From an uncultured Mollicutes bacterium (lineage in GTDB: Bacteria; Bacillota_I; Bacilli_A; Acholeplasmatales; Anaeroplasmataceae), in NCBI GenBank assembly GCA_945923475.1, contig CAMELE010000006.1, positions 1 through 64,000 of the forward strand: a stretch of 64,000 nucleotides of DNA. Direction: 5' to 3'. The notes under the pieces are model-generated. The model was not told where the DNA came from, ran no database searches, and saw nothing but the letters and a program-made list of their open reading frames with translations. Positions 1,400 through 27,333 of this stretch are shown here, one piece after another (the first letter of the stretch is position 1; each line of letters opens with the position of its first letter). The translations under genes and the position numbers were made by a program.

Positions 1400-1425
1400 A
1401 AGAACAACTCCTTCTTTTAAAAAAA

Positions 1426-1449
1426 GAGGAACAACCTAAGTTGCTCCTC
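1426..1449 (-). terminator. Intra-operon terminator between tsf and pyrH
   Basis: The minus strand carries a 9-bp stem (arms 1426-1434 and 1441-1449, one mismatch) followed directly by seven T residues. It lies between the tsf stop and the pyrH ribosome-binding site. It looks like a real intrinsic terminator and would lower pyrH-frr transcription relative to rpsB-tsf. Confidence 0.7.
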
Positions 1450-1455
1450 AAAAAA

Positions 1456-2358: not shown

Positions 2359-2385
2359 GTTAATCCTCCTAAAAATTTATGCTAA

Positions 2386-3252: not shown

Positions 3253-3370
3253 ATTTTTTCCTCCATTTTATTTTGTTTTTTACCTCTGCTTTTTTCAACG
3301 CTGTGACCTCCACAGAAATGTCATTCTGCACTGGACGGTGAGCTCCAAAAACATGTGTATTTTAATGCCT
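3253..3370 (-). promoter_or_regulatory. Structured 5' leader of rpsB (possible autoregulatory element)
   Basis: The rpsB transcript begins around 3369, so about 115 nt precede the start codon. This stretch is less AT-rich than its surroundings and can form mutually exclusive short stems on the minus strand, for example CAGAA/TTCTG around 3313-3330, CTGTG/CACAG around 3300-3316 and TGGA/TCCA further upstream. Ribosomal-protein leaders of this sort often bind the encoded protein. I do not recognise a catalogued family, so this is inference from position and pairing. Confidence 0.4.
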
Positions 3371-3375
3371 TTAGT

Positions 3376-3405
3376 ATTTTAACATTATATATTATTATTT
3401 GTCAA
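3376..3405 (-). promoter_or_regulatory. Sigma-A-type promoter for rpsB operon
   Basis: On the minus strand a perfect TTGACA (3405-3400) is separated by 18 bp from TAAAAT (3381-3376). This is the only strong promoter seen upstream of rpsB. Confidence 0.75.
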
Positions 3406-3441
3406 CACTATTTAAAAAAAAATAATACTAATTATAAAGAA

Positions 3442-3470
3442 ACAAAGGAATTGAATTCCAATCCCTTTGT
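3442..3470 (-). terminator. Hairpin after the DUF4234 gene
   Basis: An 11-bp stem with one mismatch (arms near 3442-3452 and 3460-3470) lies just past the stop of the small membrane protein. The T-tract is interrupted, so it may be a weak terminator. Confidence 0.5.
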
Positions 3471-3490
3471 TCTTTAATTTGTCATCTTTT

Positions 3491-3841
3491 TTATAGATTA
3501 ATTAAATTATTTTTTCTTTCAATATATGAATTGATCGCACTTTGTGTTATTGCTTGTGAAACTATGCCAAATCCAATAATCTGTAAAATAAAACAAATAA
3601 TATAATTATCTGATTCCACTACATAATCAGCCTTTTTATAGAACTTATAATACCAATAAATACCATAAATTCCACAAGTAACTATAGATAATAGTAGTGC
3701 TACAAGAAAATTTTGAAGATTTTCTCCAGTTTTATCTTCGTCGTTCATTTCTTCTGTAGTTACATAATACCAATAAATACTATAAATTCCACATGTGAAA
3801 ATAGATAATAAAATTACAGATATGACCTCTCTTTTATTCAT
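3491..3841 (-). CDS. DUF4234-type small membrane protein
   Basis: The 116-residue product has hydrophobic segments carrying two near-copies of a motif: LLSIFTCGIYSIYWYY near residue 12 and LLSIVTCGIYGIYWYY near residue 50, then a third hydrophobic stretch. The CGIY-IYWYY signature is what I associate with DUF4234 membrane proteins, whose function is unknown. The repeat suggests an internal duplication of a helix-turn unit. It is a single gene between rpsB and an epimerase, with its own downstream hairpin. No function is assigned. Confidence 0.75.
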   Translation of the reverse strand: MNKREVISVILLSIFTCGIYSIYWYYVTTEEMNDEDKTGENLQNFLVALLLSIVTCGIYGIYWYYKFYKKADYVVESDNYIICFILQIIGFGIVSQAITQSAINSYIERKNNLINL

Positions 3842-3918
3842 AACATTCCCTCCTATAGTCTTATTTTACATTATTAATATGAAAAATCAATTTTTTTGTA
3901 AAAAAATATATTAAATTA

Positions 3919-4797
3919 TTATAATTTATTTATTAATATAGAATATCCTGTATGATATTCCTCATTTTTATTAAGCTTTATAATTTCATTTTTATTTTTA
4001 AGCTCTAAATATGGATTATCATTATCAGGTAATCCCCACCATGGCTCAATACATATAAAATTACCAGTGTTTTTCATTGACCATATTGCAAGTATTGGTG
4101 CTTTGCTAACATCAAAGATGTATTCATATCCATTAGTATATAATGTTACCTGTTTCAAATTGCTCGCATCATATATTAAAGTTTTATTCTTTTCAATATC
4201 ATTTTTATCTAATACATATTTACCAGTTATATTTACTGTTTTACTTCCTGTTATTTGATCTCCAGAATCATTTAATGTGTATTGCTTCGATATTATTCCT
4301 AAAAATGTACAATATGTATTTTCAAAATCAAAATGATTATCTACATATCTTCCCGTTGCCTTTAAAGCTGGATGTCCTCCAAGGGAGAAATACATTTCCT
4401 TATCATCTTCATTTTTAACATTATATGAAATAATGATTTTGTTATCTTCTAATTTATATCTAACAGTAAGCTTAAACCTATATGGATATAGTTCTAGGCT
4501 TCTTTCATTATAATCATAATATATCTCTAAGGCTTCATCGTTAATTACATTGTATTTTACCATTTCATATCTAATTATACCATGATTCTTTAATGTGTAT
4601 TCCTTTCCATCTACCATATATTTATGATTTTTAAGTGCTCCTATAACTGGAAAAATCACTACATCCTGCCCCGACCAGCTTGTTCCATTTGGTTGATATA
4701 ATATTTCATCATTATTTTTCTTATCATATATAGATTTAAAGCAACCACCTAATTCATTTATTTCTACTTTAAAATAATCATTTTCAATTTTTGGCAT
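3919..4797 (-). CDS. Aldose 1-epimerase family protein
   Basis: This 292-residue protein resembles the galactose-mutarotase superfamily, which interconverts alpha and beta anomers of aldoses in the cytoplasm. Typical features are the early DVVIFPVIGALK segment, the GIIRYEMVKYN region, the GGHPALKA motif near residue 140 holding a conserved histidine, and the C-terminal CIEPWWGLPD motif with its acidic residue. It looks closest to the LacX-like branch, and its substrate cannot be told from sequence. It follows a lipoprotein gene but is separated from it by a short terminator hairpin; AAAGGAG precedes the ATG. Confidence 0.85.
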   Translation of the reverse strand: MPKIENDYFKVEINELGGCFKSIYDKKNNDEILYQPNGTSWSGQDVVIFPVIGALKNHKYMVDGKEYTLKNHGIIRYEMVKYNVINDEALEIYYDYNERSLELYPYRFKLTVRYKLEDNKIIISYNVKNEDDKEMYFSLGGHPALKATGRYVDNHFDFENTYCTFLGIISKQYTLNDSGDQITGSKTVNITGKYVLDKNDIEKNKTLIYDASNLKQVTLYTNGYEYIFDVSKAPILAIWSMKNTGNFICIEPWWGLPDNDNPYLELKNKNEIIKLNKNEEYHTGYSILINKL

Positions 4798-4820
4798 TTT
4801 ATATCTCCTTTAAAGCAAAA

Positions 4821-4840
4821 AATAGCCCAAATGGACTATT
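4821..4840 (-). terminator. Terminator after lipoprotein gene
   Basis: An 8-bp stem (4821-4828 with 4833-4840, one G-T pair) is followed on the minus strand by a run of Ts. It overlaps the lipoprotein stop codon at 4839 and precedes the epimerase ribosome-binding site. Confidence 0.6.
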
Positions 4841-5558
4841 ACTTTGCAGAATTACTTACAATTACATTACTAGAAAATTTCCAATCAATAACCATATCTA
4901 AAGTACTAGTAACAAAATCATTACTATACTTTTTAACATCGGATTCAACCTCATATGTTGCAACAACAGTTTTAACTGGTACAAACACAACAGAAATAAT
5001 AGCTTGAACATCAACATTTGAATAATATGTAAAAATCACAGGTAAATATGCGGCATATATTACTTGATTATCCTCATTCTTTTTAACATCAATTTTTGCA
5101 TACCATTCAGATTGAATATCAGCATCAAACTTAGTTATCTTTGAAGAAATTACATCCTTTTGAGAATCAACTATTGCCACAATATCAGATGCGAAAGAAG
5201 CTATACCTGCATTCATAATTCCATATTGAACATTTACGCTTCCTTCTCTAGTGTGCTCTTTAGATAAATTAGATATATGAGTTCTTATAATATTATCGTT
5301 AAAATATTCATCCTTTGGTAAACGTAAAGTAAAATAAGCACCAGTCTCAGGCTTTTTCCCCTCAAGTGAAGGTGCATATAGTTCTTCTCCATACATTTCG
5401 CCAACAGGATTAGCTTCATTCCACTTATCCTTTAAAAACCAATCTCTAGCAAGCTCTGTACTTAAAGCGGTATTATCAAGTGTCACTTTACTATTGCTAC
5501 AGCCTACAAATAATAAGCATATTAATAAACAAGAAATTATTGTTGTTATTTTCTTCAT
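4839..5558 (-). CDS. Uncharacterised lipoprotein (239 aa)
   Basis: The N-terminus is a lipoprotein signal: two lysines, a hydrophobic stretch and a lipobox ending LLFVGC, which would place Cys20 at the membrane anchor after processing. The mature part (about 220 residues) is soluble, with alternating hydrophobic strands near the C-terminus; I recognise no domain. It has its own promoter with an extended -10 at 5593-5620 and a terminator at its end, so it is probably a single-gene unit. Location should be the outer face of the cytoplasmic membrane. Confidence 0.8.
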   Translation of the reverse strand: MKKITTIISCLLICLLFVGCSNSKVTLDNTALSTELARDWFLKDKWNEANPVGEMYGEELYAPSLEGKKPETGAYFTLRLPKDEYFNDNIIRTHISNLSKEHTREGSVNVQYGIMNAGIASFASDIVAIVDSQKDVISSKITKFDADIQSEWYAKIDVKKNEDNQVIYAAYLPVIFTYYSNVDVQAIISVVFVPVKTVVATYEVESDVKKYSNDFVTSTLDMVIDWKFSSNVIVSNSAK

Positions 5559-5592
5559 AATAAAAATCCTTTCTTAATTTGATACGATAATT

Positions 5593-5620
5593 ATTATAGC
5601 ATATCTAAAATAAAATGCAA
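5593..5620 (-). promoter_or_regulatory. Promoter for lipoprotein gene at 4839
   Basis: TTGCAT (5620-5615), a 16-bp spacer and TATAAT (5598-5593) with an extended TGC before the -10 are seen on the minus strand, about 35 bp before the start codon. Confidence 0.65.
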
Positions 5621-5623
5621 TTT

Positions 5624-6541
5624 TTATTTTTTTCTTGCCCGTGGATGACACGCTGCATACTCGCTCTTCATCTTTTCAATACTTACATGTGTATATATTT
5701 GAGTTGTAGATAAATTAGTATGTCCAAGTAATTCTTGTACACTTCGTAAATCTGCACCATTATCCAGCAATGCCGTAGCAAAGCTATGTCTTAGCATATG
5801 CGGAGTAATATGAAAAGTATCCCCCATATGCTCTATTATCCCGTTCAAAATAACTCTTACACCTCTAGGTGTTAAATCATTACCATGATTATTAATAAAT
5901 ACCTTTCTACTATTTTCATTGCTTCCCTTTTGGAGCAGTTTAATCCTTTCATGTGAAATATAATGTAATAAGTTTTCTTTAAGCTCATCAAACATTATAA
6001 CAATTCTGTCCTTATCACCTTTTCCATGAACCAAAATAGTTTCATTCGAAAAATCAATTTGAGATATTTCTAAATCGCACATTTCTGAAACACGAAGTCC
6101 GCATCCATATAGAATTTCTATGATAATATAATTTCTAAAGCCTAAAGGATTTGACTTATCTATAGATGACATCATATCCATTATTTCCTTATTCTTTAAT
6201 ATTTCTGGCAATCTTTTAGGCTTTTTTATAGAGTTAATTTCTTCAAAATAATTTTTATTAACAACATGTCTTTTAAGCAAAAAGTCATAAAACGTTCTTA
6301 ATGATGATAAGTGTCTATTAATTGTTGTCGCTGAATACTTTAATGAATTCATATATACTAGATAATTCTTTGCAGGGAGTGGGTTCATAATTTTAGTTAA
6401 TGAAGGAGCCATTCTTTTCTTTGTAATAAAATCCTTAAAGGCTAATATGTCATTTTTATAGCTTATTACTGTATTATCACTATAGTTTTTTACAGAGAAT
6501 AAATAGTCTGTAAAATTATATATTGCTTCTTCATCATTCAT
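5624..6541 (-). CDS. xerC: Tyrosine recombinase XerC
   Basis: This 305-residue tyrosine recombinase resolves chromosome dimers at dif. The complete catalytic set is visible: Arg150 (CGLRVSEM), Lys174 (HGKGDK), His248 and Arg251 ([12 protein letters not shown]), His274 ([10 protein letters not shown]) and the nucleophile Tyr283 (QIYTHVS). The N-terminal SAM-like DNA-binding domain occupies roughly residues 5-90. It overlaps the trmFO stop by 8 bp; trmFO-xerC (gid-codV) is a conserved Bacillota pair, which supports a housekeeping recombinase rather than a phage integrase. It could only be confused with XerD. Confidence 0.92.
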
Positions 6542-7862
6542 TTAAAGCCTTCACCTCTTTTTCCATTTGGCTAATGGCAACCTGACCATATAAAGCTTTA
6601 CGTTCTTTCTTTTTATGCTTAAATTCTAAATCTGCCATAATGCCAAAATTAGCATTCATTGGCTCGAATCCGTTTGGATTTGCATTGCATATATATGATG
6701 CCATAGCACCAATTGCAGTTTTAGTAGAAAAAATATGAGGTTCCTTACCTTGTAAATATCTATCCATATTTATTGCCGCAACAATACCTGAAGCAGCCGA
6801 TTCAACATATCCCTCTACTCCCGATATTTGTCCTGCAAAAAAAATATTAGGATATAGCTTTGTTTGATAATTAGGATTTAAAATCCTAGGTGCGTTGATA
6901 AACGAATTCCTATGCATTACACCATATTTAACAAAGGTTGCATTTTCAAGACCTGGTATCATTTGAAATACTCTTTTTTGTTCTGGCCATTTTAAATGAG
7001 TTTGAAATCCTACTAAATTATACATTGTTTTAGCTGCGTCATCCTGGCGAAGTTGGACAACAGCGTATGGCTTTTTACCATCTGGGGTTTCAAGACCTAC
7101 AGGCTTTAGTGGTCCATATAATAATGTTTGTGGTCCTCTCTTAGCCATTATTTCTACAGGCATGCAGCCTTCAAAAACCTTTACTTCATCCTTTGTACTT
7201 GTTGGAATCTCCTCAAAAGAATGAGGGACAACACCCTCTGCATGAATAAGTTCTTCATAGAAGGCTTCAAATTCTTCCTTTGTCATAGGACAATTTAAAT
7301 ATGCTGCCTCACCCTTGTCATAGCGAGACTTTAAGTATACCTTAGAATAATCAAGTGTATCAGCAAGCACTATAGGCGCGGCTGCATCATAAAAATGAAA
7401 ATTATCACTATGAAACATTTCAATAATATTATTTGCCAAATCATCGGCAGTTAAAGGTCCGGTTGCAATTATTGTAGGCTCACTAGGGTCAATTTCTGTA
7501 ACCTCATCACAAATAATCTCAATATTTGGATTGGATTTAATCACATTTGTAATTGCTTCCGAAAACCCCTCACGGTCCACGGCAAGTGCTCCTCCAGCAG
7601 CAACCTGATGATTTCTTGCTTCCTTAATAATTAAAGAGCCAAGCATTTCCATCTCTTTTTTCATAATACCAACAGCATTCTCAAGTCCGTCCGCTCTTAG
7701 CGAGTTTGAGCATACTAGCTCTGCAAACTTTTCAGTCTTATGAGCTGGCGTCATTTTCTTTGGTCGCATCTCATATAATTTTACTTTATAGCCCTTATTA
7801 GCTAAATAGTTAGCAGCCTCACATCCAGCAAGGCCTGCCCCGATAACTTTAATTACATCCAT
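6534..7862 (-). CDS. trmFO: Folate-dependent tRNA U54 methyltransferase TrmFO
   Basis: TrmFO methylates uridine 54 of tRNA to ribothymidine using methylenetetrahydrofolate and FADH2. The N-terminal FAD-binding dinucleotide motif ([13 protein letters not shown]) and the family segments [47 protein letters not shown] and [17 protein letters not shown] are all present. An in-frame GTG-region codon at 7874 is possible, but GGTGAT lies just upstream of the ATG at 7862, so I start there (442 residues, normal length). The gene overlaps xerC downstream. Confidence 0.97.
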
Positions 7863-7920
7863 ATTAATCACCATGTATTTCTAATCAAATTATATCATTT
7901 TGAAATTAATTATAAAAGAA

Positions 7921-7950
7921 AAAAGATAATCTATTTAATAATTATCTTTT
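7921..7950 (-). terminator. Terminator after LysM gene
   Basis: A perfect 10-bp stem (7921-7930 with 7941-7950) followed on the minus strand by a T-rich tract lies at the end of the LysM protein gene. Confidence 0.7.
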
Positions 7951-8389
7951 CTCCTGGCTTAAGCCAATTATTTTTATTTAATACTAATATTTGATATGGT
8001 GTAAGTCCTGTCTTAGACATAATAGTATCTAATGTATCTGAATGTAATACCTCATATATATTTGTTCCTGTTGAATTTGTTACTTTACCAATTATTTCTA
8101 AATCAAGAATATCACTTGGGAATGTTGATATATCATAATTGAGACTTTCTAAATATGATTTTAATGTCATTTTAGATGTATCATATTTTTTCCTTGTTGG
8201 AATAAATAATATTTGATTTGGATAAATCATAGTTGACGCTAGGTTATTTAACGAAATTATCTCTTGAACAGTAACACCATATGCTTTTGCTATTTCATAT
8301 AAGGAATCTCCTTCTTTAACTATATACTTAATTGTATTTCTTAGCTCAGGACGATTAATATATTTCTCATAGCCATAATTTTGGTACAA
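7931..8389 (-). CDS. Protein with two LysM domains and no signal peptide
   Basis: The 152-residue protein has one clear LysM near residues 20-65 (YIVKEGDSLYEIAKAYGVTV, then NLASTMIYPNQILFIP) and a second, more divergent one near 108-152 (YEVLHSDTLDTIMSKTGL, then NWLKPGEKIIIK). LysM domains bind N-acetylglucosamine polymers such as peptidoglycan or spore cortex. No signal peptide or membrane segment is visible. In a sporulating organism a signal-less LysM protein recalls SafA-type proteins made in the mother cell, but I cannot prove this. It sits alone between gap and trmFO with its own terminator. Confidence 0.8.
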   Translation of the reverse strand: MYQNYGYEKYINRPELRNTIKYIVKEGDSLYEIAKAYGVTVQEIISLNNLASTMIYPNQILFIPTRKKYDTSKMTLKSYLESLNYDISTFPSDILDLEIIGKVTNSTGTNIYEVLHSDTLDTIMSKTGLTPYQILVLNKNNWLKPGEKIIIK

Positions 8390-8452
8390 ATTTCACACCT
8401 CATTTTAGGATATGTTTCAATTAAAATATAGTGTGGGCGAAAGACATAAGAA

Positions 8453-8477
8453 AAGGCCCTGAATTGAACAAGGCCTT
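8453..8477 (-). terminator. Terminator after gap
   Basis: GC-rich arms (8453-8460 and 8470-8477, AAGGCC/GGCCTT core) form a hairpin followed by TTTTC on the minus strand, about 10 bp past the gap stop. Confidence 0.75.
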
Positions 8478-8486
8478 AAATAATTA

Positions 8487-9545
8487 TTACTTAACGTTTT
8501 CAGCAAAGTATTTGATTGTTCTAACCATTTGGCTAGTATATGAATTTTCGTTGTCATACCAAGAAACAACTTCTACTTGATATGTATCCTCATCAATCTT
8601 AGATACCATTGTTTGAGTAGCATCGAATAATGAACCAAAAGTCATACCGATAACATCTGAAGAAACAATTTGATCAACGTTGTATCCGAAAGTTTCAGGA
8701 TCAGATGCAGCCTTCATAGCAGCATTTACTGATTCAACAGTAATATCCTTACCCTTAACTACTGCAATTAAAATAGTTGTAGAGCCTGTAGGAACAGGAA
8801 CACGTTGAGCAGCTCCAATTAGCTTACCCTTTAATTCAGGAATAACTAGACCAATTGCCTTAGCAGCACCTGTTGAGTTAGGAACAATGTTAACTGCACC
8901 AGCACGGCTTCTTCTTAAATCACCCTTACGTTGAGGACCATCAAGAATCATTTGGTCTCCTGTGTAAGCATGAATTGTAGTCATAATACCACTTTGAATA
9001 GGTGCATAATCGTTTAATGCCTTAGCCATAGGAGCTAAGCAGTTTGTTGTACATGATGCAGCAGAAATAATCTTATCTCCGTCAGCAAGAGTTTTATGGT
9101 TTACATTATAAACGATTGTCTTAGGCATAGCGAAGTTTTCAGCATCCTTCTTGTTAGCAGCAGGAGCAGAAATAACAACCTTCTTAGCACCTGCTAAGAT
9201 GTGCTTGTTAGCATCAGCTACATCAGTATAGAATCCTGTACATTCAAGTACAACATCTACGTCTAATTCTTTCCATGGACAATTGATTGCATCCTTTTCA
9301 GCATAAATCTTAATTGTCTTACCTTTAACAGTGATTGTTCCTGCCTCATCATCAGCAGTAACATCATTTTCATGACCAATCTCAACATATCTTCCTTGAG
9401 CTGTATCATACTTTAATAAATGAGCTAGCATGTGTGGACTAGTTAAATCGTTGATAGCAACTACTTCATATCCTTTAGCTCCAAACATTTGTCTGAAAGC
9501 TAAACGACCAATACGTCCAAATCCATTAATAGCAACTTTTACCAT
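8487..9545 (-). CDS. gap: Glyceraldehyde-3-phosphate dehydrogenase (type I)
   Basis: This glycolytic enzyme oxidises glyceraldehyde 3-phosphate to 1,3-bisphosphoglycerate with NAD+. The N-terminal Rossmann motif ([15 protein letters not shown]), the catalytic SCTTNC with Cys165, the following [13 protein letters not shown] with its active-site histidine, and the C-terminal [14 protein letters not shown] are all canonical. At 352 residues it is somewhat longer than the usual 335-340, mainly from extra residues around positions 60-75. It is monocistronic, with GGAGG before the ATG, a promoter near 9588-9615 and a GC-rich terminator. Confidence 0.98.
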
Positions 9546-9587
9546 ATTAAAAAATCCTCCTAAAAATATTGATTTTCATCATTTATT

Positions 9588-9615
9588 ATTTTACCACTTT
9601 TTTAGAAATATTCAA
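9588..9615 (-). promoter_or_regulatory. Promoter for gap
   Basis: TTGAAT (9615-9610), 16-bp spacer and TAAAAT (9593-9588) on the minus strand, about 43 bp before the gap start codon. Confidence 0.55.
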
Positions 9616-9780
9616 CTAATTTTAAACTATAATGTCAGTTTTATTTAACATTTCCTTGTATCGCTAAGTAAGTAACATTTATTTATAATAAAATAGAATT
9701 ATTTTTTTTTAATTTTCTTCCATATATTTACATTTTATTTATAAACCTAATTCTATAATTAGCTAGAAAGGATGGATAAA

Positions 9781-10362
9781 ATGAATTTTGTCCCATATGT
9801 AGTTGATCAAAAAAATGAAAGAGCATATGATATATATTCAAGATTATTAAATGATAGAATTATAATGCTTGTAGGAGAAATTAACGACCAAAGTGCTTCT
9901 ACCATTGTAGCAATGCTTTTATATTTAGAATCTATTTCTCATGATAAAATTAGCTTGTACATTAACTCTGGTGGAGGTAGTGTTACAGCAGGGCTTCAAA
10001 TCATCGATACTATGAACTTTATTTCGTCTCCGGTTGAAACAATATGCATAGGTGCAGCAATGTCTATGGCTGCAGTGATTCTAGCATGTGGTGAACATGG
10101 AAAACGATATGCCCTCCCAAACAGTGAGGTTATGATTCATCAGCCAAGTGGTGGCTTTGAGGGCACAGAGCTTGATGTTAGAATATATGCTGCTAGACTT
10201 TTAAGGATTAAAAACCGACTTTACGAAATACTTGCAGAAGCTTGTAATAGAAGTATATCTGAAATAGAAGAAAAATCCCAAAGAGATTGCTTTCTTACAA
10301 GTGATGAAGCCAAGGACTTTGGGATTATTGATAAGGTTATAGAAAAATTAAAAGCTAGATAA
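9781..10362 (+). CDS. clpP: ATP-dependent Clp protease proteolytic subunit
   Basis: ClpP is the serine peptidase core that degrades proteins unfolded by Clp ATPases. The ATG at 9781 is chosen over 9772 because the AGAAAGG ribosome site would abut the earlier codon; this gives 193 residues, the family norm. The catalytic triad is intact: Ser95 (IGAAMSMAAV), His120 (MIHQPSGG) and Asp169 (SQRDCF). The usual GMAASMG motif reads GAAMSMA here, a mild divergence. The gene is convergent with nadK and their ends overlap by 8 bp. Confidence 0.95.
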   Translation: MNFVPYVVDQKNERAYDIYSRLLNDRIIMLVGEINDQSASTIVAMLLYLESISHDKISLYINSGGGSVTAGLQIIDTMNFISSPVETICIGAAMSMAAVILACGEHGKRYALPNSEVMIHQPSGGFEGTELDVRIYAARLLRIKNRLYEILAEACNRSISEIEEKSQRDCFLTSDEAKDFGIIDKVIEKLKAR

Positions 10363-11125
10363 AATTCTTTGTTAATCTGTTGATAAATGTAATATGGTTT
10401 TTAGCATATTTAACCTTCTTATCAGATAAAGATATAGCAATAGAATTAAAATTATCAATGTTAATACTTTTAGAATCAACAGTTATCCAAATTGTTGAGT
10501 TTCCTTCTGATTTAAACTCAACCTCATGCTTTTTGGATAAAACAATTGGTGATGATAATGTATGAAAAATTTTTGAGTTGATACTAGCGATTTCTGTCAC
10601 CTGAAAAGCCTCTAGCGATGCATCTATAACAGCACCACCTAAAGATTTATTATATGCTGTCGAGCCTGCTGGAGTCGAAACACATATACCTGTTCCTCTA
10701 AAATGCTCAAGCAGAACATTATCCATATATATTTCTAGCATTAAGGTTCTAGTTGGATTAATAATAGTAACCTCGTTTAAGGCTCTTCCTTCTATCAATC
10801 CATCAGTTGTAGATATTCTATAATCTAGCATTGTGTAGGTACCAACTCTATAATTATCAGAATTTACCGCTTCTATTAAAGCGTCAATTGTATCATCTTC
10901 ATAATTTGAAAAGTATCCTAAATGGCCAGTGTTATAAATAAAAAAGGTAACATCATCTATAATTTTTTCATAGGTATGAACAGCCTTCAAGAAAGTTCCA
11001 TCTCCTCCAACAACAATCACCTTTTGAGGATTACTAGTATTATACTCATCGTGGATCTTATCAACTAAAAAATCTCTAACCTTAAGGCTTTTTTCATCAT
11101 CTTTATTAATAATTACATAGCTCAA
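10355..11125 (-). CDS. nadK: NAD kinase
   Basis: NAD kinase makes NADP+ from NAD+ in the cytoplasm. The GGDGTFLKAVH motif (near residue 40), TGHLGYF, LNEVTI and the GICVSTPAGSTAYNKSLGGAV nucleotide-binding segment identify it. I place the start at the TTG at 11125, giving 256 residues: AAAGGGTG lies a few bases upstream, whereas the in-frame ATG at 11155 has no ribosome site and overlaps a probable extended -10 element (TGCTACAAT, -10 hexamer 11151-11146). It is divergent from the CYTH gene, as in Bacillus, where yjbK and ppnK are neighbours. Confidence 0.95.
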   Translation of the reverse strand: MSYVIINKDDEKSLKVRDFLVDKIHDEYNTSNPQKVIVVGGDGTFLKAVHTYEKIIDDVTFFIYNTGHLGYFSNYEDDTIDALIEAVNSDNYRVGTYTMLDYRISTTDGLIEGRALNEVTIINPTRTLMLEIYMDNVLLEHFRGTGICVSTPAGSTAYNKSLGGAVIDASLEAFQVTEIASINSKIFHTLSSPIVLSKKHEVEFKSEGNSTIWITVDSKSINIDNFNSIAISLSDKKVKYAKNHITFINRLTKNFI

Positions 11126-11212
11126 AATATCACACCCTTTATTTAATTGTAGCATATACCTTGATTTTTTGCTATAAATAAACGATAATTATCATAGAAT
11201 GTGAGGTTAACC

Positions 11213-11776
11213 ATGGCTGATAGAATAAATATAGAGATTGAATTTAAATGTCTTATAGATAAAGCAAAATATGATGCCCTAATTAAAAATTTTAATATTT
11301 CAAAGGATCAAATTAAAACTCAAACAAATTACTATTTTGATACAAAGGATTTAATGCTTAGAAAAAAGCACGTTATGTGTCGGATTAGACAAAAGGGTGA
11401 CCAATATAAGATAACAGTTAAAACAAAAACGCCTGATAACGATAATCTAGAAACCCACTATTTTCTTACAAATGAAGAAGCGAAGCTAGCAATAGAAAAT
11501 GGTTTAGATGGAAAATATGCTAATTATCCTGATAAATTATTTAATGTTGCCACACTAACAACAAATCGTGTATGTCTTGAATATAGAGGAGGAAAATTAT
11601 TCCTAGATGAATCAAAATATGGTTCAATTACAGATTACGAAATTGAATACGAGGTTATAGACAAGAAAAATGGTGAAATAATTTTTGATGAATTTCTAAA
11701 AGAAAACAATATTGTAAGGACTAATCCTATATCAAAATCCTCAAGATGTCTTAAAGAAGCCGGATACAATATATAA
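11213..11776 (+). CDS. CYTH-domain protein (YjbK-like)
   Basis: The 187-residue product carries a CYTH triphosphate-tunnel domain: the EIEFK signature at the N-terminus, then basic and acidic strand residues such as RIRQKGDQYKITVKTK and FLDESKYGSITDYEIEYEV. Such proteins bind or hydrolyse inorganic or organic triphosphates. The closest named relative by context is Bacillus YjbK, which neighbours NAD kinase. The start is the ATG at 11213, six bases after GTGAGG; an earlier in-frame GTG overlaps that site. A shared terminator separates it from uxaC. Confidence 0.88.
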   Translation: MADRINIEIEFKCLIDKAKYDALIKNFNISKDQIKTQTNYYFDTKDLMLRKKHVMCRIRQKGDQYKITVKTKTPDNDNLETHYFLTNEEAKLAIENGLDGKYANYPDKLFNVATLTTNRVCLEYRGGKLFLDESKYGSITDYEIEYEVIDKKNGEIIFDEFLKENNIVRTNPISKSSRCLKEAGYNI

Positions 11777-11780
11777 AAAT

Positions 11781-11807
11781 AGCTTGAATCAATTACTGGT
11801 TCAAGCT
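11781..11807. terminator. Bidirectional terminator between CYTH gene and uxaC
   Basis: An 8-bp stem AGCTTGAA/TTCAAGCT (11781-11788 with 11800-11807) has T-runs on both strands and lies between two convergent genes. Confidence 0.75.
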
Positions 11808-11826
11808 TTTATTATTTATTATTTAA

Positions 11827-13239
11827 TTAGAATCCAAAATAATCCTTAGCATTGTTGTAGCATACATCTTCAACAATTTGACCAAGAGTATCTAATTCTT
11901 CTTCTGGATATTGACCAGACTCTACTAGGTTACCTAACATTTGACAAAGAATACGACGATAGTATTCATGACGAGGATATGCTAGGAAGCTTCTTGAATC
12001 TGTAAGCATACCTACTGACTGAGAAACTAAACCAACTTGCATTAATGTTTCAAGATTTTGTTTCATTCCATCTTGTTGATCAAGGAACCACCAAGCTGTA
12101 CCAACTTGAACACGGCCCTTAACTCCTTCCTCCTGGAAGCAGCCAGCTAATACTGTTAAAGCATAGTTGTCACGAGGATTTAAGCAATAAAGGATTGTCT
12201 TTGGTAAAGCATCTGCCATATCTAGAGCTCCTAGTAATGCAGAAAGCTTCTCCATATAATTTTGGTCTTCGATTGCATCAAAGCCTGTATCTGGTCCAAT
12301 CTTTTCAAGCATTGTTTTAGAGTTGTTACGTAGGGCACCAATATGATATTGTTGTACCCAACCGTGCTTCTTGTATTCTTTTCCTAAGAATACTAATATA
12401 TAGCCCTTATATTGATCTTGCTCCAAATCAGAAATAGTTTCATGCTTCATACCCTTTAAGAATACTGCGTTTGCCTCATCATATGTAGCTTTTGTATAAT
12501 GAACAACATCTAAAGCATGGTCAGAAACACGTGCACCCATTGAATGGAAGAATTCAATACGCTCAGCTAAGCAATCAGTTAAATCTTTAAGTGACTTAAT
12601 TTCCTTACCACATACTGTTCCAAGTTGATTAACCCATGATTCAAACCATGATAATTCAACGTTAATTGCCTTATCAGGACGGAATGCTGGACGTACAGTA
12701 ACCTTTAATGTTTTATCCTCCATCATCTTCTTATGCCATTCAAGAGAATCAACTGGATCATCAGTTGTACAAACAGTCTTTACATTGAACTTGTACATCA
12801 TTTCGCGAGCAGTTAATGTTTCAAGCTTAGCATTAGCCTCATCCCAAATCTTTTTAGCATTTTTAGAATTAATAACATCATAAATACCAAAATATCTTTG
12901 CATTTCTAGATGAGACCAATGGTATAATGGATTTCCAACAAAATATGGCATAGATTCAACGAATTGAAAATATTTCTTATAATCGTCATCTGGTCCAGAA
13001 ATAGAATCCTCTTCATATCCTCTAGCACGAAGGCTTCTCCACTTATAGTGATCACCATAACGATCTCCTGCACCAAGCCATGCCTCAGCTAAATTACGGA
13101 ACTTTTTGTCCTCGTAAATCTCTTTTGGCTGAAGATGACAGTGATAATCAATAATAGGCATTTTTTCAGCATGCTCATGATATAGCTTCTTAGCGGTTTT
13201 TGTTGTTAACAAAAAATCTTTATCCATAAATTTTTGCAT
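11827..13239 (-). CDS. uxaC: Uronate isomerase
   Basis: UxaC converts D-galacturonate to D-tagaturonate (and glucuronate to fructuronate), the first cytosolic step after pectin breakdown. The 470-residue length is standard. Recognisable features are the metal-site DYHCHLQPKEI near residue 30, the WSHLEMQRYFGI segment, VCTTDDPVDSLEWH, and the C-terminal GMLTDSRSFLAYPRHEYYRRILC. It is the last gene of a uxaB-uxaA-uxaC operon (20-bp gap to uxaA) and supplies the substrate for UxaB encoded upstream. Confidence 0.96.
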   Translation of the reverse strand: MQKFMDKDFLLTTKTAKKLYHEHAEKMPIIDYHCHLQPKEIYEDKKFRNLAEAWLGAGDRYGDHYKWRSLRARGYEEDSISGPDDDYKKYFQFVESMPYFVGNPLYHWSHLEMQRYFGIYDVINSKNAKKIWDEANAKLETLTAREMMYKFNVKTVCTTDDPVDSLEWHKKMMEDKTLKVTVRPAFRPDKAINVELSWFESWVNQLGTVCGKEIKSLKDLTDCLAERIEFFHSMGARVSDHALDVVHYTKATYDEANAVFLKGMKHETISDLEQDQYKGYILVFLGKEYKKHGWVQQYHIGALRNNSKTMLEKIGPDTGFDAIEDQNYMEKLSALLGALDMADALPKTILYCLNPRDNYALTVLAGCFQEEGVKGRVQVGTAWWFLDQQDGMKQNLETLMQVGLVSQSVGMLTDSRSFLAYPRHEYYRRILCQMLGNLVESGQYPEEELDTLGQIVEDVCYNNAKDYFGF

Positions 13240-20751: not shown

Positions 20752-23700
20752 TTATTTTCCCTCCTTCATAGTTTTAACAAGTGCATTTAAATTTGTCCAC
20801 CAATTATCATATTGATTTTGAAGACTAAAGTATAATTTAACATTTTCTTCATCATCAAAGAATGTTAATGATGTTGAAGAGCTATAAACATTTTCAGTTA
20901 CTAAATAGCTATCAGCACTATTGTGATTTGTTTCAAGAAGCTTAGCAAACACTTCTGTAGAAGAATTTTTTGAATTACCAAATACAAAATATAAATAAGC
21001 ATCCTGATTCTTATTTTGAATTTCTCCCGAACTAATTAATGTATCTACTAAGAATTGAATTAATACTTCAAATTGAGATTCACTTGATGTAAATCTTGTA
21101 AATACAGGTTGAAGATATGTAGTTAATGCTGTTGTTACAGATGCTGGCAATGATGATGTTGAACCATTTGCTGCATATTCAAGCATAAATGCTAATACTT
21201 GATTTAAAGATAGCTTGTCTGAATAGTCGCCATTTTCATCAATAAGGCTATAAACGTCTGCAATCTTGTATGCGTCATCACCATAAATATAAACTAAATC
21301 TTTATAAATATCACTTTCTGGATAATCTTCAGGATCATATTTAGCACTTGCTTTTTCGGTAGCAGATGTTAAAACTAATAGATTGTATCCTTCATTTGTT
21401 ACTAATCCATTTTCTGTTCCTTCGTAATATTTAGTAATCATATACTCATTAGGCATTACCTCATCATTAAATAGGAATTCCTCTGTATATGCTTTATAAA
21501 TTGCAAGTTTTAAAACATCATAGCATGATGCATAATCTGTTGAATTAGAAACTGAAGCTAGCTCGCTTGTCTTGATGTATAAACCAGCCTTACGATATTT
21601 TGCCCACTCTCTTTCAGCAGCAGTTGGATTATAATCTCCATCCTCTGCTGGAGTATGGTTGTAATCATTGTCAAATCTTGATGCAGAGTTATACTCAGAA
21701 ACAATTTTTGATAACGCATCAACATTAGAATCTGTAGAATTATCAACAAGCTTAATAACCTTTTTGATTAATTCCTGAGCTAATTCACCATAAGTGCAAT
21801 TATATTCAGCGCCTGGTACAGGTTTTGACCAGTCAAAAATATCAATTCCGTCAATTTCAGTTCCAGCTTTATCAGGATTTCCATCCTCATTCATATCTAC
21901 ATATACTAATAAATTAGTTGCAGACACAGAGAAATATGAGTCATAGTAATTATTTGCATATTCTTGTAGGAATAATGCAAGCTTTTCAGATGAATAATCA
22001 TTTAATAATGTCGCAGATGCTTCGTTTACACAGTAAAAATTATGAACAATTTCTTCCATATCAGTTGAATGGAAATATAATTTTAAGAACTTATATTTTC
22101 CAAGAGATGATGAATAACCAGATGATGATAATTGATCGTTTGCAAAATTAGATAATAAATTATTTAAATTTTGATAATATGTATCAATTTTGTCCTTGTC
22201 ACCAGTAATTTTCTTATATGTATCTGTTTCCTTAATTAATTCTGTAGATAATAAAGATACTGCGCTGGAAATACCACTGCTAATTTCAAGCTCTTCCCAT
22301 ACATCACTAATTGTAACTGTAACAGTTTCGTTTTCAATGCCAAGGTCTTCATCCTCGTATTTAAATGTTGCAATTACATTGTAATCAGATTTTTTCTTAT
22401 TTCCTTTGTAATCACTATTTGAAGCCTCATATGCTATTTCGATATCTTCATCATAGATTCTTGCTTCTACATTTTCTTTTGCATTAGTAATGCAATTTGA
22501 AATATATGAAGATGTTAAAGTATCTTGCTTTAAGTTCTCATAAATTTCTTCTAGTAATTCATAATAAGCCTTCTTGCCTTCTGTTGATAACAATCCATTT
22601 AATGATTCATCATTTTCAGCTAATTCCTTTAATTTCTCATCTGAAATTTCAAGCTTAGAATTTCCATCATAGGTATATACCTTATATTCATTTTCTACCT
22701 TCTCAACATAATACAATTCATCTTCATTAGAATTCGTATAGTAAAGTTTTTTATCACTTTCTGGTGTATTTAGCTTATAAGCCATATAGTAAAAATCACC
22801 ATAATTTTGACCAGCGATAGAATAATTTGTTGTAGCACTTCCACTATTTTCAGTAATCTTTAATGTGTCATATAAATAAGTTGTAAGACTAGAGTTAATT
22901 TCATCTAATGCCTTCTTTGTGAATGTTGTATTTTCATTATCCTTTAGACCGTGCTCTAATGCATATTGATAAGTATATTTTGAAGCTTCCTCATCAGATA
23001 AAGTAGAATAAATTCTATATAAATCCTGTGTAATATTTCTTCTATTTGTAGTATTAGATGTTTCTATTGCTAATGATTGTAATGACTCTCTATATGAATA
23101 GATATAGTTATACATTTCAATGTAAAGAGCAAATACTAAGTTAGTGTTTGAAGTAAGCTTAACTGCATCATATGATACTGAGCTTAAATTGTTTGCAAAG
23201 TCATAATCATCATAATATTTAGAATATTGAGCATCAGTTCTATCCTTTTGAGGAATAAAATATAGTTCTGAACGATATGCCTTAACACCAAAAGCCTTAA
23301 ATACAGCATTTACCTCATCTTCATTGATAAAACGAATTAAAATCGCATTTACTGTAGATGAATACAAATAATCTTCCTTCCATTTTGCGATTATTTCAGA
23401 ATTGCTAAAATAACGATCCTCACCTTCTTCAAGTTCATCATTATGATCAGCAATTTCCTTCTCTAAAACCTGGTATGCATATAACTTTTGCGCATATGAT
23501 TCATAGTATGTTCTAAATAATTCCTTTTGAACATTTGAAAGATCGCTAAATTTATAAGCTGCTCTTCCGTTTTCTGACTTTGCTTCATACTCCTTTCCAG
23601 TTTTTGGATCAGTATATGATACTCTTGAAATCAAACGTGCAATATCCTTTGAATCAATGCTAATACGATGATTCTTCCAAACATTATCCTTATATTTTAA

Positions 23701-24099
23701 TTCTGATGAACTAAACAAATATGGATTATTAAATCCATCATAATCATCTATGCTTGAAAAACCATATACATCGCATACTAAAAGCTTCTGAACCTCATTA
23801 ATGTATTCAGGATTATTGTTTTCCTCAATTTCTTTTGTAACTTCAGTGATTTTATGAGAAACAATAGAAGTGTTAAGCTTTTCACCTAAATAGCTTGCTG
23901 AGCTCCACTTCATTTGGTCAAATAATTCTTTATTTGTTACAGTTCTGTTCCCTAATGTAACATATGCTTCATTTCCATTTATATCATCATATTTATCTTG
24001 AGCTTTTGAGCATGACGAAAGAGTCAATGCTAAAAGGCATGACATAAAAGTTAGACTTAATGGCTTTAAAAGACCCTTATTTTTATTTGATATACTCAT
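20752..24099 (-). CDS. Giant parvulin-like lipoprotein B (1115 aa)
   Basis: This is a paralogue of its downstream neighbour. The signal peptide ends in lipobox LTLSSC (Cys30). The N-terminal region has the same layout (ALGNRTVTNKELFDQ-type start, then an ...KLLVCDVYGFSSIDDYD segment that parallels NIYGVSEIEDYE in A). The strand LLVYVDMNEDGNPDKAG near residue 735 aligns with HILISIDYDGDGNNDD in A but lacks the parvulin histidine and has a weaker calcium-loop pattern, and the later GYNLLVLTS near 910 lacks GYH. It may therefore be a non-catalytic chaperone. AAGGAG precedes the ATG; with A it forms a two-gene operon closed by a hairpin. Confidence 0.65.
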   Translation of the reverse strand: MSISNKNKGLLKPLSLTFMSCLLALTLSSCSKAQDKYDDINGNEAYVTLGNRTVTNKELFDQMKWSSASYLGEKLNTSIVSHKITEVTKEIEENNNPEYINEVQKLLVCDVYGFSSIDDYDGFNNPYLFSSSELKYKDNVWKNHRISIDSKDIARLISRVSYTDPKTGKEYEAKSENGRAAYKFSDLSNVQKELFRTYYESYAQKLYAYQVLEKEIADHNDELEEGEDRYFSNSEIIAKWKEDYLYSSTVNAILIRFINEDEVNAVFKAFGVKAYRSELYFIPQKDRTDAQYSKYYDDYDFANNLSSVSYDAVKLTSNTNLVFALYIEMYNYIYSYRESLQSLAIETSNTTNRRNITQDLYRIYSTLSDEEASKYTYQYALEHGLKDNENTTFTKKALDEINSSLTTYLYDTLKITENSGSATTNYSIAGQNYGDFYYMAYKLNTPESDKKLYYTNSNEDELYYVEKVENEYKVYTYDGNSKLEISDEKLKELAENDESLNGLLSTEGKKAYYELLEEIYENLKQDTLTSSYISNCITNAKENVEARIYDEDIEIAYEASNSDYKGNKKKSDYNVIATFKYEDEDLGIENETVTVTISDVWEELEISSGISSAVSLLSTELIKETDTYKKITGDKDKIDTYYQNLNNLLSNFANDQLSSSGYSSSLGKYKFLKLYFHSTDMEEIVHNFYCVNEASATLLNDYSSEKLALFLQEYANNYYDSYFSVSATNLLVYVDMNEDGNPDKAGTEIDGIDIFDWSKPVPGAEYNCTYGELAQELIKKVIKLVDNSTDSNVDALSKIVSEYNSASRFDNDYNHTPAEDGDYNPTAAEREWAKYRKAGLYIKTSELASVSNSTDYASCYDVLKLAIYKAYTEEFLFNDEVMPNEYMITKYYEGTENGLVTNEGYNLLVLTSATEKASAKYDPEDYPESDIYKDLVYIYGDDAYKIADVYSLIDENGDYSDKLSLNQVLAFMLEYAANGSTSSLPASVTTALTTYLQPVFTRFTSSESQFEVLIQFLVDTLISSGEIQNKNQDAYLYFVFGNSKNSSTEVFAKLLETNHNSADSYLVTENVYSSSTSLTFFDDEENVKLYFSLQNQYDNWWTNLNALVKTMKEGK

Positions 24100-24279: not shown

Positions 24280-24378
24280 ATGGCATGTGACAACAGTCAA
24301 AGTACTAATACGTCTTGGGCATTAATCCTCGTTTTATTCATACTGCTTGTAATAATCGGTGCTTCATGGGCGCTATAA
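24280..24378 (+). CDS. YjcZ-family tiny membrane protein (32 aa)
   Basis: A very strong ribosome site (AAAAGGAGGG) precedes an ATG at 24280 that opens a 32-residue frame: a short polar head (MACDNSQSTNTSW) followed by one hydrophobic helix (ALILVLFILLVIIGASW). This layout matches the tiny single-helix YjcZ/sporulation mini-proteins of Bacilli, many of which are made in the sporulating mother cell. It is a single gene, ended by a perfect terminator. Spore association is inferred from the family type. Confidence 0.75.
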   Translation: MACDNSQSTNTSWALILVLFILLVIIGASWAL

Positions 24379-24380
24379 AA

Positions 24381-24410
24381 AAATAGTCTGTTATTTTTTA
24401 CAGACTATTT
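24381..24410. terminator. Bidirectional terminator between yjcZ-like gene and cca fusion
   Basis: A perfect 11-bp stem (24381-24391 with 24400-24410) has T-runs on the plus side and As that act as Ts on the minus side. It overlaps the stop codon of the minus-strand fusion gene. Confidence 0.85.
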
Positions 24411-26438
24411 TAATTTATAGAACTTAGTTTTATCCATAACCCCAATTGTATCAGTAAATTCTCCAGCCTTAATCTTTTCTAGCTCCTGACCTAGAACTCT
24501 AAACTTAGAATCGATTGTATCAATATACCAAATTGCTGCCGCTTCAGCAGTTTGGGGCTTTTTACAGGCACCAAATACTTGCTGTCCATGATGAGAAATT
24601 ACAATATGCTCAAGGATTAAAGCTTCTTCTGTTTTTTCAAGACCTAGCCCTTTTGCTATATCAAATATCTTTAGTCCACCAATTACAAGATGACCTAGTA
24701 ATTGTCCCTCAAGTGAGTATTCCGTATTTTCAACTCCTGTAAATTCTAGTGTTTTACCTAAATCATGAAGAATAACACCAGAGTATAAATAGTCCTTATC
24801 TAAATATGGAAAATTTCTTTTAAAATCTTGAGCTATCTCAAGCATACCTAAAGTATGATGGGCAAGGCCCCCTACATAATTATGATGTAATCGTTGCCCA
24901 GCAGGATATATGAAGAAGAGTCTTTCATATTGCTTTAATGCCTCTAATGTTATAGCCTTTATATTACTATTTTCAATCAAATCAGCATACCCATATATTT
25001 TACTTTTTAGCTCATCTAATGAATAAGGACAAGATGAATCAAACATCCTATATACCATATCAACTTCAGTTATATCCTCTATCTGTGAAACCTTTTGGCA
25101 CTCAAACAGATAATAAACCTCTTTTTCTGAATTACTATGGCGGCCAACCTTCATTTTATAAATATAGCCAATTTTTATATTATCGTTTTGTTCTTCAGTT
25201 TTAACATTTATATCTACTTGATTAGGTAATGTAACTAATAAATTGTACATCCCATCAGAAGTATTAATACCTTTTATTTTTCCATAATATGTGAAATACT
25301 CTACGTTTGCCATAAATTTTCTCCTAATATATTCTTCTATTTCAATGGAATCGTTTTTTATATATCCATTAAGGATATTTATTTCTAATTCTTTATATAA
25401 TTGTCCAAGCCATGGGCCATCTGATTTCTTTACAAGATCTACAATTGTATCTCTTGAAATCATCACATCCTTACGAGATGATATTGGTAAATTTTGCTTT
25501 TTATTTATAATCATTTCCTCTTTGACAAATGATAATGATAAATAATAATTTAATCTGTTTGCTAGAATCAATGTATCAATATCATTATTGTATAAATTAA
25601 TAGCTAATAAGATATCTTTTCCTATTAATTCTAATGCTCTATAGAATAGCTTTTTTTTGTGGTTCTCAATATTAAATGATATTTCTTTATTATAATATAA
25701 GGATAATGCTAGAATATCATCTAAGGTTGGGGTTAAATTCTTTTTTATAATTAAAGAAATTGCTTGGTCGATTTTTAAATATTTAGAAGCATTACAACGA
25801 TTTAAATACCCTAAGCCTTTAACATAATATTTTCCTTTTATTATTTTATTTAATTCATCTAAAATTCTTTCACTACTCAATGATTTAATACTTTTTACAT
25901 TTTTAAGCATTGCATCAAATGTGTTTTTTTCAATATCAAATCCTAATTTTGATGTAAAATGGCAAGCTCTCAAAATTCTTAGTGAGTCCTCATCAAACCT
26001 AATGTTTGGATCACCAATGGACTTAATTTGTTTGTTTTTCAAATCGTCTAAGCCTTGGAAATAGTCATATATTTTCCCATTTGCATCCATTAATAATGCA
26101 TTTATCGTAAAATCTCTTCTTTTAAGGTCTTCATCTAGGCTATTAGTTATTTCTGTAACTGGATGTCGATGATCTGAATAAGAAATATCCTTGCGAAAGG
26201 TCGTAACCTCAAACGAATATTCATCCTGATTTACAACAACGGATAAGTATTTTTCTCCATTGCTGTTTTTAATATCAAAAATTTCCTTAACATCGTTTGG
26301 AGTTGCATTTGTAGTAATATCGATATCATTAGAATCAATATTTAAAATACTATCTCTAACATAACCTCCAACAATATACGCTTGGAAGCCGTTATTATTA
26401 AGTTTTTTTAATACCTTAAAAGCAGATTCCCTAAGCAT
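24405..26438 (-). CDS. Fusion: CCA tRNA nucleotidyltransferase + YhaM-like 3'-5' exoribonuclease
   Basis: One uninterrupted 677-residue frame joins two enzymes. Residues 1 to about 365 are a bacterial CCA-adding enzyme or poly(A)-polymerase-type head: GGYVRD (24-29), catalytic DID (38-40), RRDFTINA (107-114) and FDEDSLRILR (148-157). Residues about 370-455 look like an OB fold (YYGKIKGINTSDGMYNLLV, then a YKMKVGR-type strand). Residues 455-677 are an HD hydrolase closely resembling Bacillus YhaM: LHHNYVGGLAHHTLGML, SGVILHDLGK, EGQLLGHLVIGG, HIVISHHGQQVFG and IWYIDTIDSKF, with all metal ligands. So a tRNA 3'-end polymerase is tethered to an RNA 3' exonuclease. GAGGTGAC precedes the ATG; a terminator separates it from degV. 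Confidence 0.88.
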   Translation of the reverse strand: MLRESAFKVLKKLNNNGFQAYIVGGYVRDSILNIDSNDIDITTNATPNDVKEIFDIKNSNGEKYLSVVVNQDEYSFEVTTFRKDISYSDHRHPVTEITNSLDEDLKRRDFTINALLMDANGKIYDYFQGLDDLKNKQIKSIGDPNIRFDEDSLRILRACHFTSKLGFDIEKNTFDAMLKNVKSIKSLSSERILDELNKIIKGKYYVKGLGYLNRCNASKYLKIDQAISLIIKKNLTPTLDDILALSLYYNKEISFNIENHKKKLFYRALELIGKDILLAINLYNNDIDTLILANRLNYYLSLSFVKEEMIINKKQNLPISSRKDVMISRDTIVDLVKKSDGPWLGQLYKELEINILNGYIKNDSIEIEEYIRRKFMANVEYFTYYGKIKGINTSDGMYNLLVTLPNQVDINVKTEEQNDNIKIGYIYKMKVGRHSNSEKEVYYLFECQKVSQIEDITEVDMVYRMFDSSCPYSLDELKSKIYGYADLIENSNIKAITLEALKQYERLFFIYPAGQRLHHNYVGGLAHHTLGMLEIAQDFKRNFPYLDKDYLYSGVILHDLGKTLEFTGVENTEYSLEGQLLGHLVIGGLKIFDIAKGLGLEKTEEALILEHIVISHHGQQVFGACKKPQTAEAAAIWYIDTIDSKFRVLGQELEKIKAGEFTDTIGVMDKTKFYKLK

Positions 26439-26457: not shown

Positions 26458-26477
26458 GAGGAAGCGTAACGCTTCCT
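26458..26477 (-). terminator. Terminator after degV
   Basis: GGAAGCG, three bases, CGCTTCC followed by TCTTTTTT on the minus strand; it lies between the degV stop and the start of the cca fusion. Confidence 0.85.
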
Positions 26478-26481
26478 TAAA

Positions 26482-27333
26482 TTAGTCCTTTAAAAAACAA
26501 CCTAAACCAATAGCATTTGGACCCACGTGACAGCCAACTACAGGAGAGCATGGAAGCTCAAGAAGATTTTCTAATCCTATTTTTTCTTTTATTACATCAA
26601 CAAAGAAATCTCTTAATCCTGGACCAGTATATACAATAAAAGGTATATACTCCTTACCCTCAACATAATCCTTAAATCTATCACATACAGCTTCTAATGC
26701 TTTTTTTGTTGTTCTAATTTTCTCAATTGCTTGAATTGTACCATCCTCACATAATGCTAAAAGTGGTTTAATCTTTAAGTATTTACCTAAAAAACCTGCA
26801 GCACCAGAAAGTCGTCCATTTTTTACAAGACATTCTAGTGAATCTACTGCAAACATTAAGAAATTTTGATTTTTTAATTGATCTAATTTCTTTAAAATAG
26901 CCTCTGTTTCTTGACCTTCTTCTATCATTTGTGCAGCTGTAAGCGCAAAATATCCTTCATTAAAGCATACCGTCTTTGTATCTACTGGATAAACCTTAAT
27001 TCTTTCCTCAACCATTTCAGCAGCCTTACAAACACCGTTATAAGTTCCAGATAATTTAGAAGAAATTGTTGTAACAATAACCTCTTCAAATCCCTCATCT
27101 GCATAGCCCTCAAATATTTCAACTAGTTCACCAATTGAAGGTTGACTAGTCCTAGGAACTAAATGCTTATCTGCTTCTAATTTTGCATAAAACTCATCAG
27201 CTTTAATCTCAGTACCATCTGCAAGTAATTCTCCATTGACATCTATTTTAATTCTAATTGTTCTAATATCATAATCGTGCTTATAATAGTCTAAACAGCC
27301 TGTTGAAGTTGTACACACTAAACGCTTTGCCAT
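26482..27333 (-). CDS. DegV-family fatty-acid-binding protein
   Basis: The 283-residue protein is a DegV-family member, cytosolic proteins that bind a fatty acid (FakB-type) and can present it to the kinase FakA. Characteristic features are the early TTSTGCLDYYKHDYDI region, RTSQPSIGELVEIFE near residue 60, SSKLSGTYNG near residue 87, and the C-terminal PVVGCHVGPNAIGLGCF. No FakA is in the window. It is a single-gene unit with its own terminator. Which fatty acid it binds cannot be told. Confidence 0.9.
   Translation of the reverse strand: MAKRLVCTTSTGCLDYYKHDYDIRTIRIKIDVNGELLADGTEIKADEFYAKLEADKHLVPRTSQPSIGELVEIFEGYADEGFEEVIVTTISSKLSGTYNGVCKAAEMVEERIKVYPVDTKTVCFNEGYFALTAAQMIEEGQETEAILKKLDQLKNQNFLMFAVDSLECLVKNGRLSGAAGFLGKYLKIKPLLALCEDGTIQAIEKIRTTKKALEAVCDRFKDYVEGKEYIPFIVYTGPGLRDFFVDVIKEKIGLENLLELPCSPVVGCHVGPNAIGLGCFLKD

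Follow-up and report, generated by a model that had tools for sequence, protein, structure and literature searches.

Several described systems resemble parts of the locus reported here. The Bacillus-type CCA-adding enzyme, which lacks an HD domain, is represented by the profile PRK13299 and by the structures 6ibp and 7otr, and E. coli-type Cca joins a nucleotidyltransferase to an HD domain in one chain. The tRNA nucleotidyltransferase of Thermotoga carries Nrn (nanoRNase-like) and CBS domains in the order Nrn-CBS-CCA (PMC8208693), with the 880-aa A-adding enzyme of NCBIfam NF041569 as a comparison for this type. YhaM of Bacillus and Staphylococcus (PRK13480; structures 9h3f and 9o7t), with an OB fold and an HD domain, is normally a free protein; in S. 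aureus it is an active, Mn-stimulated hexamer that trims single-stranded RNA, and in vivo YhaM can partially replace tRNA-processing enzymes (PMC11347170). Finally, phage endolysins provide a proven case of one gene that, by means of an in-frame internal start, gives two polypeptides forming hetero-oligomers (PMC9430671).

Here we describe a gene that joins a Cca to a YhaM-like protein, found in a 64,000-nucleotide stretch of DNA from an uncultured Mollicutes bacterium (hereafter the window). With the Thermotoga enzyme it shares a class II tRNA nucleotidyltransferase and an RNA-degrading-type domain on one chain; in Thermotoga, however, the Nrn (DHH) and CBS domains precede the nucleotidyltransferase core, whereas here an OB-HD unit follows it, and the available portion of PMC8208693 describes no internal start. 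E. coli-type Cca likewise has a nucleotidyltransferase and an HD domain in one chain, but its HD domain belongs to a different family and comes without an OB fold. No report of a fusion between YhaM and a tRNA nucleotidyltransferase was found in open-licence papers, and the cca-yhaM fusion is apparently undescribed. The first-pass annotation of this DNA likewise knew of no description, and in this narrow sense it holds; it had missed the CCA enzymes with another RNA-degrading domain that are already on record (PMC8208693).

Results

The fused gene occupies positions 24405-26438 on the minus strand, with its ATG at 26438 (preceded by GAGGTG), its stop codon at 24407-24405 and no internal stop, and it encodes 677 aa. 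The single 677-codon frame reported in the first-pass annotation is therefore real, although the annotation had missed that it lies on the minus strand. Residues 1-375 (25314-26438) form the Cca module, recognised by profiles, invariant catalytic residues and a structure model, and residues 376-677 (24408-25313) form the YhaM-like module, an OB fold (about 376-450) followed by an HD exoribonuclease domain, recognised by profiles and fold match. Upstream lies degV (DegV family; 26482-27333, minus strand), which serves as a synteny anchor, and downstream a lipoprotein-like protein of 1115 aa (20752-24099, minus strand), without a Pfam match, whose counterpart also follows yhaM in the relatives G001, G011 and G015.

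Two hairpins flank the gene. A consensus terminator scan marks a terminator-like hairpin with a T run between degV and cca (26459-26477, minus strand), some 20 nt upstream of where cca starts. Transcription of cca would then either begin at a promoter within degV or read through this hairpin. Direct reading of the sequence reveals a second hairpin with a T run (TAGTCTGT / ACAGACTA; 24377-24407, minus strand) that overlaps the stop codon of the fused gene; it is absent from the list returned by the terminator scan and is the probable terminator of the gene. Convergent with the fused gene, a small ORF of 32 aa (MACDNSQSTNTSWALILVLFILLVIIGASWAL) is found behind GGAGGG at 24280-24378 on the plus strand, and its product presumably resembles the YjcZ-type tiny membrane proteins.

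The Cca half matches PRK13299 (NCBIfam, Bacillus-type Cca) over residues 4-373 with 311.8 bits, above the curated cut-off of 290, and the Pfam families PolyA_pol, PolyA_pol_RNAbd and tRNA_NucTran2_2, so that head, RNA-binding neck and C-terminal domain are each covered by profile matches. When the protein is compared with E. coli-type Cca, the PRK10885 match is confined to residues 19-220. The closest solved structures for residues 5-375 are the CCA-adding enzymes 7otr and 6ibp. The motifs GGxxRD, DxD, RRDFxxN and EDxxRxxR are present, with TTFRKDISYSDHRHP as the loop between motifs A and B, and the columns G24, G25, R28, D29, D38, D40, R107, R108, D109, N113, E150, D151, R154 and R157 are invariant among the aligned relatives, fused ones included. 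Judged by these profiles and residues, the Cca half is an intact class II CCA-adding enzyme; its active site looks alive, and CCA addition is its predicted activity. The complete class II nucleotidyltransferase proposed at first pass is thus recovered, with the motifs named there falling in invariant or nearly invariant columns. Architecture, motifs and above-cut-off score are those of the Bacillus-type enzyme without HD domain; unlike that enzyme, the fused Cca has no stop of its own and continues into the protein of the next gene.

The full-length structure model is confident for Cca to about residue 370 and poor for the HD part, where the alignment is shallow, so that the packing of the domains is not to be judged from it. 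In this model the last Cca helix (364-376) leads to the first OB strand, which begins at residue 380, with about three residues between them. A separate model of the YhaM half (pLDDT 89.9) has a five-stranded barrel in residues 376-449 followed by an all-helical HD domain. Residues 376-449 have no Pfam match, and their barrel finds its fold matches among OB proteins such as RPA and Stn1-Ten1.

A profile search places the HD domain at residues 526-641, and residues 447-675 align to residues 81-309 of YhaM (PRK13480; E 4e-61, 207-210 bits). The PRK13480 equivalog cut-off of 460 bits is missed by this half and reached by none of 60 relatives, for which reason we call the module YhaM-like rather than YhaM. 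The best PDB sequence match of the C-terminal half is the cryo-EM structure of YhaM, 9h3f, which is also its best fold match (TM-score 0.94 on the target, rmsd 1.2 Å, 208 columns, 39% identity). Counting along the YhaM half, H143-H144, H153, H183-D184, H208, H236, H241-H242, D265 and D268 are invariant in 32 aligned proteins, both fused and free; the HD active site looks alive, and exoribonuclease activity is predicted. Compared with Bacillus and Staphylococcus YhaM, the protein thus shares the domain layout, the fold and all conserved HD residues, and it differs in its N-terminal Cca, its divergent OB fold, its HD sequence and its sub-equivalog score. The PRK13480 and 9h3f matches, together with named motifs in invariant or nearly invariant columns, bear out the earlier assignment of everything after about residue 370 to an OB-HD unit of YhaM type, distinct from the HD domain of E. 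coli-type Cca. No second yhaM was found in the genome.

The in-frame ATG at codon 376 (25311-25313) occupies the ancestral yhaM start position: an ATG stands at the same YhaM-relative position in the three other fused genes (in G002, G003 and G009), and it corresponds to the yhaM start of the unfused congener G001. Each of the four fused genes has a strong Shine-Dalgarno sequence just ahead of this ATG, where its YhaM part starts: AGGAG in the window (25321-25325, 7 nt before the ATG), AGGAGG in G002 and GAGGAG in G003 and G009. A six-base Shine-Dalgarno context precedes just 2 of 359 internal in-frame ATGs in the window, one of them the site in the fused gene, versus 19 of 53 start codons. 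AGG makes up 5.9% of arginine codons in the window and 1.6% in sampled G002 genes, and both genomes use it in the internal Shine-Dalgarno; 60 of 113 fourfold sites differ between our genome and G002. In the second genus (g2) the fractions of GAG among glutamate codons (0.585) and of AAG among lysine codons (0.688) are high, which makes GAGGAG there less remarkable than AGGAG in our genus (g1), and the motif shared by G003 and G009 is weak evidence for selection because the two genomes are close. RNA folding around the internal start revealed no special structure (z -0.99). Taken together, these features indicate that the gene probably makes both Cca-YhaM and, by internal initiation, free YhaM, a probable pair of products that the first-pass annotation overlooked. 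Mixed assemblies of the two are plausible by analogy, since YhaM is a hexamer elsewhere. As in the phage endolysins, we would have one gene, two nested proteins with a shared C-terminus and possible hetero-oligomers; the enzymes are unrelated, and the two products are proven in the endolysins and inferred for cca-yhaM (PMC9430671).

A survey of relatives for fused versus separate genes, as the first-pass annotation had proposed, found the fusion again in G002 (L109, same genus), G003 (L107) and G009 (L108), the latter two belonging to a second genus, with the genes separate in most relatives. In all, 4 of 55 family genomes carry it, two in each of these genera, and none was seen among the best-scoring matches listed for the other sampled genomes of the class. 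The fusions in G003 and G009 are complete at 677 aa each; that in G002 runs for 580 codons to a contig end, and its final 89 residues open another contig. Frames in the phytoplasmas G127, G130, G134, G138, G139, G140 and G143 (522-809 aa) that had looked like further fusions were rejected, having at least one stop between the genes. Several phytoplasmas (g26; e.g., L173, L177, L178) have, close to yhaM, a short Cca frame of about 250-310 aa whose C-terminal domains look reduced. Genomes of another genus (g3; e.g., G018:C4:57358, G014:C20:16687) apparently have no operon cca beside yhaM and carry a longer Cca of about 450-460 aa elsewhere. An alignment that combined fused with single-domain proteins placed the Cca tails wrongly and was set aside.

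The order degV - cca - yhaM - lipoprotein is common to the fused genomes of our genus and the unfused G001, G011 and G015. Database hits that carry names (Paracholeplasma vituli, Acholeplasmataceae and Acholeplasmatales bacteria) put our genome in or near the order Acholeplasmatales. Across this order cca and yhaM are operon neighbours, frequently overlapping or separated by a few bases: direct adjacency prevails in family f3, and in our own family and f5 the two mostly flank a single gene of about 2 kb, a pullulanase (CBM_48, PulA_N1 and alpha-amylase domains). Equally spaced pairs occur in other orders of the class (e.g., G192, G265), which suggests that the cca-pullulanase-yhaM order is old. 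Among the 48 unfused pairs examined whose genes lie within 200 nt, 6 overlap, and many share one reading frame, the genes being separated by hardly more than a stop codon. In G001 the end of cca and the start of yhaM share 13 nt in different frames, and the Shine-Dalgarno of yhaM (GGAGG) falls within the final codons of cca; a small frame shift at an overlap of this type is predicted to yield the fusion.

In a concatenated tree our genome (G000) and G002 are sister to the unfused G001 (support 96), followed by the unfused G011 and G015 (76) and then by the fused G003 and G009. A constraint grouping the four fused genomes is rejected (AU p=0.020), and since the fused lineages do not group together, the fusion probably arose twice; one ancestral fusion followed by two fissions would be less parsimonious.

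The same locus has also fused cca to its other neighbour. In a sister genus (g5), G022 (L099:1209-4385) and G061 (L102:1366-4542) each encode one in-frame Cca-pullulanase of 1058 aa with both domain sets, and G069 (L103:1215-3131) has a Cca-pullulanase frame cut by a contig end. In a quick tree G069 groups with unfused relatives and not with G022 and G061 (support 0.883), hinting at another independent event. No ATG, GTG or TTG stands at the old pullulanase start in these fusions. The 1062-aa Cca-pullulanase frames of G020 and G023 were discarded for a stop inside. We see no functional tie between adding CCA and debranching starch, and the argument from fusion to function is weakened accordingly; as read from these gene arrangements, this is a locus that fuses Cca in frame with whatever adjoins it, by position and not by shared function.

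In 41 of the 45 tRNA genes scanned the CCA is encoded, so that Cca would mainly repair ends. The genome also has RNase R and PNPase, which speaks against the idea of YhaM as its sole 3' exonuclease. Trimming by a YhaM-type enzyme with subsequent CCA repair would make chemical sense but is required by nothing seen. Elsewhere in the genome, contig C59 (L117:2628-7396) carries an RNA-repair-like cassette of RtcB ligase, the nucleotidyltransferase RlaP (PF10127) and another Cca, this one of the HD type and 447 aa long, in which the loop separating motif A from motif B is shortened. On contig C1, at about 839-12983, some 20 mostly lower-scoring tRNA genes lie in one array, which perhaps belongs to a phage or other mobile element.

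Discussion

We favour, with a probability of roughly 0.7, a reading in which the fusion followed from gene position and the two enzymes retain ordinary, separate jobs. Here cca and yhaM, adjacent in one operon, would have lost the boundary between them in our lineage and separately in a second genus, such that the last Cca helix now continues directly into the first OB strand of YhaM. Ribosomes would make the 677-aa Cca-YhaM and, by internal initiation, a 302-aa free YhaM, and the two could co-assemble through the YhaM hexamer interface. Each enzyme would keep its usual task, tRNA CCA repair for the one and limited, Mn-dependent trimming of RNA 3' ends for the other. The fusion would not answer a need to join the two activities, any effect of tethering would be secondary, and continued production of free YhaM may be what makes the fusion tolerable.

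The first-pass annotation had suggested instead a one-protein machine for tRNA 3'-end proofreading, maturation or turnover. Spelled out, this reading would have the tethered YhaM trim damaged or misprocessed tRNA 3' ends and pass them to Cca, with the covalent link itself under selection. Both active sites are fully conserved, the Cca of a genome whose tRNA genes mostly encode CCA would be chiefly a repair enzyme, YhaM partly replaces tRNA-processing enzymes in vivo (PMC11347170), and nanoRNase-type domains sit on other CCA enzymes (PMC8208693); furthermore, the same pair fusing twice, as it probably did, could be a hint of benefit. However, cca also fuses to a pullulanase, the two genes are operon neighbours across the order and separate in nearly all relatives, the congener G001 included, the start for free YhaM is kept, RNase R and PNPase are at hand, and CCA addition by the Thermotoga enzyme does not depend on its Nrn and CBS domains (PMC8208693). 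On this evidence we regard a dedicated machine as unlikely.

A bolder variant, which we rate a long shot, would place trimming and CCA repair on one particle after all: a hexamer of both products, free YhaM subunits carrying a small number of Cca-YhaM chains, whose composition would be set by the ratio of the two start sites. It would amount to a bacterial particle for tRNA 3'-end turnover that evolved twice.

It is also conceivable, and in our view distinctly improbable, that the 677-aa protein alone is made, the two enzymes being inert neighbours on one chain and the internal Shine-Dalgarno a relic. The Cca-pullulanase proteins, whose genes have lost any start codon where pullulanase used to begin, demonstrate that such a chain is tolerated, and the motif could be an ancestral leftover; yet it has been kept with rare arginine codons despite strong synonymous divergence between our genome and G002, and it is found in the second lineage as well. 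Six copies of Cca on each YhaM hexamer would, we infer, also be bulky.

An artefact of assembly, frameshift or contamination has a negligible chance of explaining the locus, as all four fused genomes are many-contig drafts but the same in-frame junction recurs in separate assemblies of four species and two genera with conserved surroundings. Equally negligible is the prospect that the C-terminal part is simply the HD domain familiar from E. coli-type Cca: both are HD domains, but the best profile, PDB sequence match and fold match are all YhaM (9h3f), this part is preceded by a whole Cca, body and tail, and the real Cca-HD protein of this genome is encoded on contig C59.

The locus offers a natural fusion series: among close relatives one pair of genes is found apart, overlapping or fused, and in a sister genus cca has also been fused to an unrelated enzyme. 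It warns clearly against the Rosetta Stone argument, in which fusion by itself is taken as a guide to function, and it presents a two-product design that can be tested. If trimming and CCA repair proved to be coupled here, the locus would provide a compact system in which to study tRNA 3'-end turnover.
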